The notes below the pieces were generated by a model. The model had not been told where the DNA came from. It searched no databases and worked only from the letters and a program-made list of their open reading frames with translations. Positions 3,001 through 23,740 of a DNA stretch of 23,740 nt are shown here, one piece after another. How positions within the stretch are numbered: the first letter of the stretch is position 1; each line of letters opens with the position of its first letter. The stretch lies in the IMG/VR virus record IMGVR_UViG_3300024264_000173, positions 1 through 23,740 of that record; one strand, 5' to 3'. The position numbers were made by a program, and so were the translations under genes. This DNA is from a virus.

Positions 3001-6000
3001 CCTAAACTTTCGCTCCACTTAACAAAGTCACTTAGTAAAACATGATTAATATTGTTTAGATCAAATTTAGTGTTTCTATACTTTCCTGGAGTAAAATCAT
3101 GTATGTCAATTTTAGTAGTATCATATACACTTTTAATATTATTATATATTCTACGTTCAAGATCTAAAATTAAATTATCTCGATAATCATTAAATGCAAT
3201 AGTTTTACTTCCGTCATGACCTCTTATAATATTTGTAGGAGTTCTGTAAGTATTATCTTCATAAATTTCCGGAACGTAAGAAGGATATAATCCTAATTTA
3301 CTAGGTGTACTTGGTATGTAACATCCATCAGTACTTTCATATTCAAAAATTTCAATTTTATCACCATCTGCTTTAGTTGCTGTAATTACAGCAAAACCAT
3401 CACTATTAAAAGTATAATCTCTACCATGTACTAACTGTGCTCCGTTTTGATAAATTGTTACGGCTTTATTGCTTAGTTTTGTTTTATCAAATACTTGCGA
3501 CAAACTAAAGAAAGTATTCTCAGTATCGTAAACTGTGAACTCTAATCTTTTATTTCCTAAAAAAGGAACCATGTCACTAAAATAATACGGGTCGGTTGTT
3601 GTTTTGTCTTTTAATACTTCTTTTAAAATTCTATCAACATGTTCTTTAGTTTGGCCATCAAAGCCTAAATTTTCTGCTACTTGTAAAAACGATCTTTTAA
3701 AAGTTCTAAATTGTTCTTTAGCAGAATCAATTGCTTTGATTACATTTGCTTCTTTTGTAGTAATGTGATAAAGAGGATTATTAATTGGGCCCGAATGTTG
3801 TACAAACTTTTTACCAACAGTATTAATATTACCTAAATTTGCTAAGTTACTGTTTCCAGGAAATACTCCACTAAAGTTGTCTAAGTCTTCAATCATACTA
3901 AACACATGATCATTCACTTCACCTAATGTGAAAGTAGTTAAGTTTACATTATTTGGGTTGTGTTCTAGATTAATTGGAAATTCATAATAACCGTTGTCAT
4001 TTTTCTTAGTTGCTGATTTAGTTTTTAAAATAATATTATCGCCTGCACTTAACGAACTATCAAATACTATAAATGCTCTTCCATCTTGTCTTGAAAGTGT
4101 ATAGTCATAAAAATGATTGTTATTTAAAAGTACAGTAACATTTAAATCATTTAAATCACCAGCCTTATCATACATGTCAACTTCAACTTGTGTAGTTCCG
4201 CTAGTAATATTATACTGTCTAATTACTTTTTGGGTTGATAAATCTTTTGCTTTTTCCCATCCATTTTTATAAGTAAATGCATTTAACGAAGTATACTTCC
4301 GCAAAAATCCTAGTTCAGTATTAGTAGTAAACGTGTCTGTTAAACTTTGATGTGTAAATTTCTCTGTTAACATATCAAAGTTGAAAGTAATATCGCCTAC
4401 ATTAGTTAATGCTCGGTACGTTACTGGAAATCCTAATTCTGTATCATTAGTTCCTGTACCAACTTTATAACTAAAAATTTTGTTACCTTTAAACGTAGAT
4501 GTGTTGTAAGTTTCAGTATCTGAATAACTAACACCGTTAGAATCAAACATATCAAACAATGGTTGCTGGTTTGCTTTAGTTTTTAATTGTCCTAGTACCC
4601 ATTTAGTACCATTAAAGTAATAATGCTTACCAGCATTTTCAATACCTTTTTTAACTAACACTACTTCATTTGTTTGCGGAGTTGCATCAGTTTCTTCAAT
4701 TAACGCAATTTGACTTACAGTATTATTGTGTTTGATAAATTTTACTTTATAAATTTTACCGGTTACTCTAATGTCATTATCAGCAGTAAACAAAATACGC
4801 ATGCCGTCAGTAATATTTTCACCGTCAATATTAAATCCAACTGAACCTTCTACAGTTGAAAATATATCAGTTGTAAATGTATCAACTAAGTCAACATCTT
4901 GTTTTTTTTCTGTACCAAAATTATATAATTTAATACCACTATCAAATTCAAGAATTGGACGCTTGGCTCTTAGTGATTGATCTATTTTAACAATATCACC
5001 ATTTATTTCAGCACTCTTTTCAATTACTGATCTATGATACCATTTGTTGTTTCTTGCCCAAGCATTTTTATCAGGAGAATTTCTATTTACTACAATATAA
5101 TCTTTTGTTTCACTGTAAGATGCCGCATTACCAAATGGCAAACTATCAAAATTATCACTATCAAATGCAATTGGTTTATCTTGGGAATATGCTAAAGATA
5201 TTATCAACTCATCTGTATTAACTAAACTTATATTAGTACCTACACCTTCAACTATCCAGTATCCAGTTGCATATTTTGCAGGCGTAACTTCGCCTATAAA
5301 ACTTAACTTCATACCATTTAGAAGTTCTACTCCTTTAGAAGTAGTGTATTCAGACTTTCCAATAATTTCTTGTTCTACATTAATTTCTGTTGCTTCATCA
5401 ACTTCTGCAATTCGAATAACACCGCCAGCATTAATATCGTTACTGTTTTGATAATATAATCTTGCTGGAGCGTTTAAAGGTACTGTGAATGTAAGTAATC
5501 CCTCTTCAATATTGTCGTTGCTAATACCAGTTTCAAAAATAGTGTTAGCATCAAGACTGCGTTCAGTTCGTATTGTAAACGGCATGTCAGGACTGCTTAT
5601 ATCAAAAGTATAAGTTTGTCCTTTGTATAATTCTATTGTAGGATTTTGTTCAAGATTTCCGTTTATTACATAAGAAACATTGTTGCCGTTTTGTATACTT
5701 GTAATTGTATAAGTGTTTGTTACATCTGTGCTTTGTCCTGCAACATTTATTGTTGATGGTCCGTTTGGTAACCAAAAGTATTCACGAAAATTAGTTAACT
5801 TATCCCAATTTAAATTTGGGTTCCAAGAATAATATTCTGCACCATTAAGTAAATCATGATTGTCAGTGTTTCCACCAAATGCTTTTATTTGGTTAACGTA
5901 ATCATTGTAATCTTTATAAAATGTTACATTATCATAAAGATCTTTTGCAACAACTGATGGTTCTAATTGATACGATTCTCTAGTGCTTGAAGTATCACCA

Positions 6001-23068: not shown

Positions 23069-23518
23069 ATGCAGTGGACTTATCAAGGAAAAACAATTGA
23101 CACAATACCAGATGAGTATGAAGGCTTTGTTTATCTAATTACAAATACCACTACAGGCCAAAAATATATAGGCAAGAAACTAGCAAAATTTAAAACTACC
23201 AAGCCACCACTCAAAGGCAAAAAAAATAAAAGACGTGGAAAAAAAGAAAGCGATTGGAAAGATTACTGGGGATCCAGTGACAGACTAAACGCAGACGTTG
23301 CACAACTAGGCGAAAACAAGTTTACAAGAGAAATATTATACCTATGTAAAGGTAGGGGCGAAATGTCCTATATAGAGGCAAGAGAACAGTTTGATAGGCG
23401 TGTACTTGAAACTGATGATTACTATAACGGTATCATTAATGTTAGAGTAGGCGGATCAGACAAACTCAAACAGGCATTGCTAGAACATCACATCAAGGCA
23501 AAACAATCTAACACCTAA
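23069..23518 (+). CDS. GIY-YIG family endonuclease (Seg-like)
   Basis: A 149-residue protein that is mainly a GIY-YIG domain. GFVYLI at residues 19-24 stands for the GIY part and QKYIGKK at 31-37 for the YIG part. A very basic loop follows (38-60, Lys/Arg-rich), then DYWGSS near 65-70. Further candidate active-site residues are R87 (KFTREIL), E103 (SYIEAREQF) and N120 or N124 (YYNGIINV). The family cuts DNA; T4 carries free-standing Seg homing endonucleases of this type. No separate DNA-binding module is seen beyond the basic loop, so it may be a homing enzyme or a domesticated nuclease. The RBS is weak (GGTAAG-like), 20 bases after the previous stop. Confidence 0.75.
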   Translation: MQWTYQGKTIDTIPDEYEGFVYLITNTTTGQKYIGKKLAKFKTTKPPLKGKKNKRRGKKESDWKDYWGSSDRLNADVAQLGENKFTREILYLCKGRGEMSYIEAREQFDRRVLETDDYYNGIINVRVGGSDKLKQALLEHHIKAKQSNT

Positions 23519-23587
23519 GGTTGGCGGGCCAGATTAAAAATACCGCTGAGAAAAAGGTCCCGTGATAAGGACACTCGTACACGTTGA

Positions 23588-23610
23588 GCCGCGTCCGGTA
23601 GTAGGGCGGC
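23588..23610 (+). repeat. Hairpin GCCGC...GCGGC in the non-coding region
   Basis: Five G-C pairs (23588-23592 with 23606-23610) continue, after a two-base bulge, into CC/GG (23595-23596 with 23604-23605) around the loop GGTAGTA. It is the most GC-rich point near this end of the window. Confidence 0.5.
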
Positions 23611-23622
23611 AGGATTGATGTA

Positions 23623-23640
23623 GATTGACTGTTAGCAATC
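23623..23640 (+). repeat. Hairpin GATTG(A)CT-GTT-AGCAATC
   Basis: Seven base pairs with one bulged A and a three-base loop. It is followed by GAAAAA rather than a T-run, so it does not look like an intrinsic terminator. Confidence 0.45.
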
Positions 23641-23737
23641 GAAAAACACAACACAGTTCATAAAAACTCTTTAGCAATAGGAACGAAGCGAGAGGTAATG
23701 TGTTATATGTAATAATATATATTTTTTAAGGAATTAT
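23641..23737 (+). promoter_or_regulatory. AT-rich leader with RBS for the next gene
   Basis: No gene is seen here. It contains CTCT (23667-23670) able to pair with AGAG (23691-23694), an extended -10-like TGTAATAAT (23708-23716) without a clear -35 box, and a strong RBS AAGGA (23728-23732) five bases before the ATG at 23738. Confidence 0.4.
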
Positions 23738-23740
23738 ATG
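23738..23740 (+). CDS. Start codon of a further gene, cut by the right edge
   Basis: ATG in the last three bases, preceded by AAGGA at ideal spacing. In T4-like genomes the sliding clamp gene 45 lies near gp46 in this direction, so it could be gp45, but no coding sequence is visible to test this. Confidence 0.45.

Follow-up and report, generated by a model that had tools for sequence, protein, structure and literature searches.

What is encoded in the short G+C-rich stretch that follows a GIY-YIG nuclease gene in a T4-like phage? The stretch (23519-23640) lies in a window of 23,740 nucleotides, which is the whole DNA analysed here (positions 1 to 23,740 of the IMG/VR virus record IMGVR_UViG_3300024264_000173). 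Genes of a T4-like phage that resemble gp55, gp47 and gp46 precede the nuclease gene in the window. The stop codon of the nuclease gene is 23516-23518 and 23519-23640 comes immediately after, which agrees with the position given in a first-pass annotation of the letters alone. The 63 G+C counted there in 122 bases proved exact and the surroundings are indeed AT-rich, with a G+C content of about 0.27-0.41 in 500-base segments of the remaining window. The same annotation had read the stretch as a foldable, structured and possibly switching RNA that belongs to no known family and that might be linked to mobile elements through its neighbour.

The neighbouring protein resembles SegE-type free-standing endonucleases in that it matches Pfam PF19835 over the full length of the profile (1-123 of 123); it differs from these in that the nuclease is found here at one genome position and paired with the RNA, although it is unpaired in phage Melnitz and in the tested cyanophage S-SRM01. 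PHROG 447 and many phage records label this family as NAD synthetase whereas Pfam describes it as a SegE-type GIY-YIG nuclease; the former label is a propagated misannotation.

Distribution and extent of the RNA

Viral contigs were searched with the nuclease alone, which gave 80 loci with 89-97% identity. The element was present behind the nuclease in 79 of these, and the remaining locus stops 24 nt past the stop codon. A second search used the RNA motif, was blind to the nuclease and yielded additional loci. Since these were chosen on the motif, its invariance among them is partly by construction, whereas the nuclease-found loci are free of this bias. One match to the degenerate pattern (L261) was discarded; no RNA is present there. 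Some loci represent one contig fetched twice, and alignments were built from non-redundant sets. The family comprises over 200 loci in marine phages. When a covariance model was built from the 3' core, each of four large contigs proved to contain a single strong copy (E=1e-32 to 2e-39), and a second phage lineage was recovered as well (E=6e-25 to 7e-27); with nine isolates (Melnitz, HTVC008M, HTVC111P, HTVC112P, HTVC202P, HTVC026P, DSL-LC06, S-SRM01 and phiN3) only chance-level scores were obtained. Blastn against phage and plasmid records gave no match to the RNA. Weak matches to Lak phages (E=0.3) covered only the AT-rich last 43 bases of the stretch from the window and were rejected. Two matches were found in bacterial genomes, L253 and L254 (PBPT01000016 and PBPT01000082), both contigs with RNA and nuclease from one marine Neomarinimicrobiota MAG. 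In L254, which has enough upstream DNA, the phage genes gp55-gp47-gp46-nuclease precede the RNA, and these T4-like genes suggest that both are phage contigs binned with the bacterium.

Judged from the homologues, 23519-23640 is the 5' part of a larger conserved RNA of ~340-475 nt (Table 1), and the element marked in the first-pass annotation was therefore real but incomplete at both ends. The RNA starts at AAGG at ~23517, i.e. at the nuclease stop codon, and continues past 23740. Conserved sequence is seen already from ~23499, so that the last nuclease codons overlap the conserved 5' flank. This flank is probably part of the RNA, since it stays as non-coding sequence where another ORF separates nuclease and RNA. 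In relatives the 3' end is at approximately ...GGTTCCGTCTGACTGAAACAATCTACATGAAG, 340-475 nt after the start. Positions 23517-23696 are identical in 178 of 180 bases to L001, which has a full copy at 3430-3850. The end of the window cuts the RNA inside a variable hairpin insert, which was found complete in L073. This insert sits between P8 and the 3' core and differs even among close relatives. In many loci, e.g. at L001:3790-3900, one or more further hairpins with loops of the TTCG/CGAA type follow the RNA; they are possibly terminators.

Table 1 Features of the nuclease-RNA locus in the window
Feature	Position	Strand	Basis
SegE-type GIY-YIG endonuclease gene	23069..23518	+	ORF; Pfam PF19835 E=6e-36; PHROG 447
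Conserved 5' flank, GGCAAAACAATCTAACACCT-like	23499..23516	+	Upstream alignments of L095, L099, L147, L158; putative boundary
Structured RNA, 5' part only	23517..23740	+	Homologues
P1	23524-23527 with 23543-23546	+	100% paired; 2/4 pairs covary; 32 sequences
P2	23548-23550 with 23574-23576	+	100% paired; UA/AU compensatory change
P3 (GGTCC/GGAC stem)	23557-23560 with 23569-23572	+	4/4 pairs covary; 85.9% paired
P4	23581-23587 with 23615-23621	+	98.2% paired; 3/7 pairs covary
P5	23592-23596 with 23604-23608	+	4/5 pairs covary; 86.9% paired
P6	23623-23627 with 23636-23640	+	4/5 pairs covary in both alignments (92.3% and 97.0% paired)
P7, 5' strand (GTTCA)	23656..23660	+	5/5 pairs covary; 99.0% of cells paired
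P8	23667-23671 with 23690-23694	+	5/5 pairs covary; 91.8% paired; loop contains AGGAACGAAGC
Variable hairpin insert, truncated by the window end	23695..23740	+	0-110 nt in relatives

Covariation defines a pseudoknotted fold

The folding energy of the single sequence was not better than that of shuffled sequences (z = +0.49 for 122 nt and +0.40 for 222 nt), and the stretch is thus no more foldable than expected by chance. A structured RNA is nevertheless strongly supported by covariation among homologues, the check proposed in the first-pass annotation. A home-made, R-scape-like test with a null that preserves column rates and tree found 12 pairs at E<0.05, 8 of which were at least 90% canonical; the other significant pairs adjoin true pairs, and bulges or misalignment are their probable cause. 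The same stems ranked top in a scan of all possible helices, with P4 first. Pairs of the 3' core were counted in 40 non-redundant sequences from two phage lineages: 97.1% of cells were paired compared to 87.0% after shuffling and at most 45.7% in a control in which the core was slid by 1-3 columns, and 117 cells showed double changes compared to 24.3 in the shuffles. In the 5' domain, counted in 32 sequences including the window, 94.9% of cells were paired, 18 of 28 pairs covaried, all six stems (P1-P6) showed covariation and double changes amounted to 125 cells versus 38.6 in shuffled alignments. GU cells by far outnumbered AC cells (101 versus 2), which identifies the + strand as the RNA. 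The covariation, found in two phage lineages, proves the fold on this strand.

The 3' core contains P9, a helix with an invariant hairpin loop, and P10, a hairpin near the 3' end that lies between two short direct repeats. The long-range helix P7, whose pairs covary throughout across the two lineages, has its 3' partner (TGAAC in L001) past the window end and inside helix P9, as seen in other loci too. The crossing of P9 by P7 makes the core a pseudoknot. The 5' domain is less constant. P5 is an exchangeable module with two forms in the alignment, the longer one being present in many relatives, and in four T4-like loci (L092, L108, L183 and L254) an unrelated structured segment takes the place of the entire 5' domain. 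P7 appears to be kept where P5 is longer or the 5' domain is swapped, as judged by eye for L092 and L108.

The competing stems described in the first-pass annotation were located as stated (GGTCC at 23556-23560, GGAC at 23569-23572, GGGCC at 23526-23530), but only one of them is conserved. The GGTCC/GGAC stem is P3, in which every pair covaries; in the GGGCC/GGTCC alternative 58.8% of cells were paired versus 58.9% in shuffled alignments, with zero double changes.

Genomic context

Wherever enough DNA is present, the gene order gp55-gp47-gp46-orf65-nuclease-RNA is constant in the T4-like carriers. The 174 motif-found loci comprise 149 with the nuclease upstream, 17 with too little DNA and 8 without the nuclease, which corresponds to nuclease adjacency in 149 of 157 decidable loci. 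The eight nuclease-free loci and L237, which has short upstream DNA, are candidates for a second phage lineage and appear to form one; no GIY-YIG nuclease was seen in its members (L112, L119, L201-L203, L237, L239, L246 and L260). In the six members whose flanks were read (L112, L119, L201, L237, L239 and L246), terminase genes are located 1-3 kb downstream of the RNA. L239 has a terminase with 52-54% identity to those of the pelagiphages HTVC111P, HTVC112P, HTVC202P and HTVC026P and of DSL-LC06, in which the covariance model did not find the RNA.

This context bears on the idea that the RNA is a cis-regulatory leader of the downstream gene, either riboswitch-like or an attenuator. Indeed, 142 of 163 loci have a next ORF of the same orientation, with a median gap of 160 nt. 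However, a conserved family of downstream genes on the same strand is absent: single-linkage clustering separates these genes into at least 30 groups, of which the largest (91 loci) may be held together by low-complexity stretches, and in 21 of 163 loci they are on the opposite strand. Since the downstream genes vary, the RNA is not the riboswitch of one gene. Further hairpins, seen by eye, lie between RNA and gene, two mutually exclusive conserved stems are absent and no riboswitch of Rfam matched. A leader function is therefore unlikely, and the switching RNA considered in the first-pass annotation is not supported.

More improbable again is that the RNA is a guide or cofactor of the GIY-YIG nuclease, the two forming one RNA-guided or RNA-activated system. 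The pair is found in the same order in the 79 of 80 close nuclease homologues and in the 149 of 157 decidable RNA loci mentioned above, and the RNA begins at the nuclease stop codon. But co-occurrence is not obligate, as the logic of IscB/TnpB-type systems would demand: eight RNA loci of the terminase-adjacent lineage have no GIY-YIG gene, and Melnitz, S-SRM01 and phiN3 carry homologous nucleases without the RNA. Since the RNA is also found without nuclease, beside terminase genes, it is not simply a nuclease guide. The fixed gene order suggests co-inheritance; from this order the T4-like loci look inherited and not mobile. The adjacency on which the proposed link to mobile elements was based is thus real, but RNA and nuclease each also occur alone. 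The adjoining nuclease is probably a conserved neighbour and not the effector of the RNA, but there may be a functional link between both in the T4-like lineage, since nearly all close nuclease homologues carry the RNA.

A dedicated promoter for the RNA was detected neither in the window nor in 221 of 225 loci. In the other four (L079, L125, L163 and L195), the space between nuclease and RNA has an inserted sigma-70 consensus promoter (TTGACA-17-TATACT/TATAAT) at 93-103 nt before the RNA.

Two direct repeats change in step

P9 is followed by ACTC plus 7 nt and P10 by ATCT plus the identical 7 nt, e.g. ACATGAA. The repeats, which span ~7-10 nt, are located at L001:3710-3795 and in all full copies, past the end of the window. 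The two 7-mers were identical to each other in 135 of 138 RNAs, despite at least 12 variants, and on the tree 27 changes were joint (both copies on the same branch) versus 2 in a single copy. Divergent members obey the same rule, with AACTGAA in L246, ACATCAAG in L260 and ATCATCAAGT in L112. The length of the repeat unit is 49-68 nt. Complementary partners were sought in the RNA itself, in 600 nt before and 300 nt after it and in the rest of the locus, with no clear enrichment over other repeat variants, and the repeat motif was not enriched in five whole phage records. Both copies therefore seem to be constrained by an external partner.

The best published parallels are the A-B-A' signature of DRT10 RNAs, in which the match of the repeats is kept while their sequence varies (PMC12632851), and the ACA-1/ACA-2 repeat pair of DRT2 (PMC11100668), whose RNA is also pseudoknotted (PMC12039810, PMC11100668). 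Like these template RNAs, the RNA described here is structured and has two matched direct repeats that vary together; it differs in that its repeats are longer and enclose a conserved hairpin, and no reverse transcriptase was found in the carrier phages. By analogy, the RNA could be a template for repeat-adding or template-jumping reverse transcription, or a guide, with the repeats as A and A' jump sites that would let a polymerase or partner strand jump; it would be carried by the phage and used by a host enzyme. The repeats stay identical while their sequence shifts and have no complementary partner within the RNA itself, and the core is a pseudoknot, as in DRT2. However, a reverse transcriptase (PF00078) was absent from 12 RNA-carrying phage records, the units of 49-68 nt were not enriched for multiples of 3, never-ending (neo-type) frames were found in 30 of 107 units where 29 were expected, and a conserved hairpin lies inside the would-be template. 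We consider this reading very improbable; if true, a phage RNA would be using or jamming a host repeat-adding reverse transcriptase.

Comparison with known RNA families

With Rfam 15 (4227 families), no covariance model matched the window at its gathering score, the full element of L001 gave only four sub-threshold chance matches at E up to 10, and six divergent loci gave none at E up to 3. The candidates SAM_alpha, S-element, snoZ39, SSRC38 and ZNRD1-AS1_2 were far below the gathering score and were rejected. The models of GOLLD and ROOL did not match the window, L001 or the divergent loci. Therefore, the RNA family is, by Rfam 15 and the open-access literature, previously undescribed, as the first reading had surmised.

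GOLLD is a large, pseudoknotted, phage-encoded RNA with a conserved 3' region, a less conserved 5' region and a variable linker (PMC12286853). The RNA described here is likewise a large pseudoknotted phage RNA with a conserved 3' and a variable 5' region and linker, the function of both being unknown, but it is half as long (GOLLD often exceeds 800 nt) and has other neighbours. ROOL is also phage-encoded, with a complex pseudoknotted fold and no known function (PMC12286853), but it is longer; in the window, neither tRNA nor tmRNA genes were found by ARAGORN, and the RNA is thus not adjoined by tRNA genes. The cyanophage RNAs PhotoRC-II, wcaG, manA, the glutamine riboswitch and the CfrI antisense RNA are RNAs of marine T4-like phages as well (PMC9602691, PMC2864571), but none of their Rfam families matches, and those with a cis-regulatory role form the 5' leaders of metabolic genes whereas the RNA described here follows a nuclease gene and precedes varied genes. 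In sum, the RNA belongs to the loose kind of large structured phage RNAs of unknown function and to none of the testable known families of this kind.

A GIY-YIG neighbour and a pseudoknotted core would also fit a self-splicing group I intron, in remnant or variant form, with the GIY-YIG protein as homing endonuclease. This is hardly tenable: no intron model of Rfam matched even at E=3-10, the RNA comes after the nuclease stop codon or after other ORFs and interrupts no gene, and it is present without the nuclease. A protein-coding or DNA-level element (small ORF, origin or packaging site) that mimics an RNA is the least likely reading. In the second lineage it is located shortly before terminase genes, a common place for packaging sites, but the ratio of GU to AC cells reveals one-strand selection for RNA pairing, and a conserved reading frame is at odds with compensatory changes, indels and exchangeable modules.

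Proposed function

We propose that the stretch behind the nuclease gene is part of a new single-copy noncoding RNA gene of marine phages, most likely coding for a trans-acting structural RNA, a reading to which we assign a probability of roughly two in three. A nuclease guide, a cis-acting switch, an intron and a template RNA are all less likely. We infer that the RNA is made as a separate transcript and acts in trans on a partner. Transcription of the + strand would include the nuclease gene upstream or, in some relatives, start at a sigma-70-type promoter of the RNA itself. The transcript would then fold into the variable 5' domain (P1-P6) and the conserved core, the 3' half being held together by P8, by P9 with its invariant loop and by P7 crossing P9. 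Its action would be that of a structural RNA in trans, either by itself or together with a protein of phage or host, and a single partner, different from phage to phage, may dock at both of the identical repeats. The repeats recast the question of function as: what do both bind?

Large structured phage RNAs such as GOLLD and ROOL are known to be puzzling and give experiments almost no point of attack, and the new family is unrelated to them. It offers a pseudoknot proven by covariation, modules that are exchanged between relatives and a pair of repeats evolving in step, and its structure is defined well enough for an Rfam family and for searches of metatranscriptomes.
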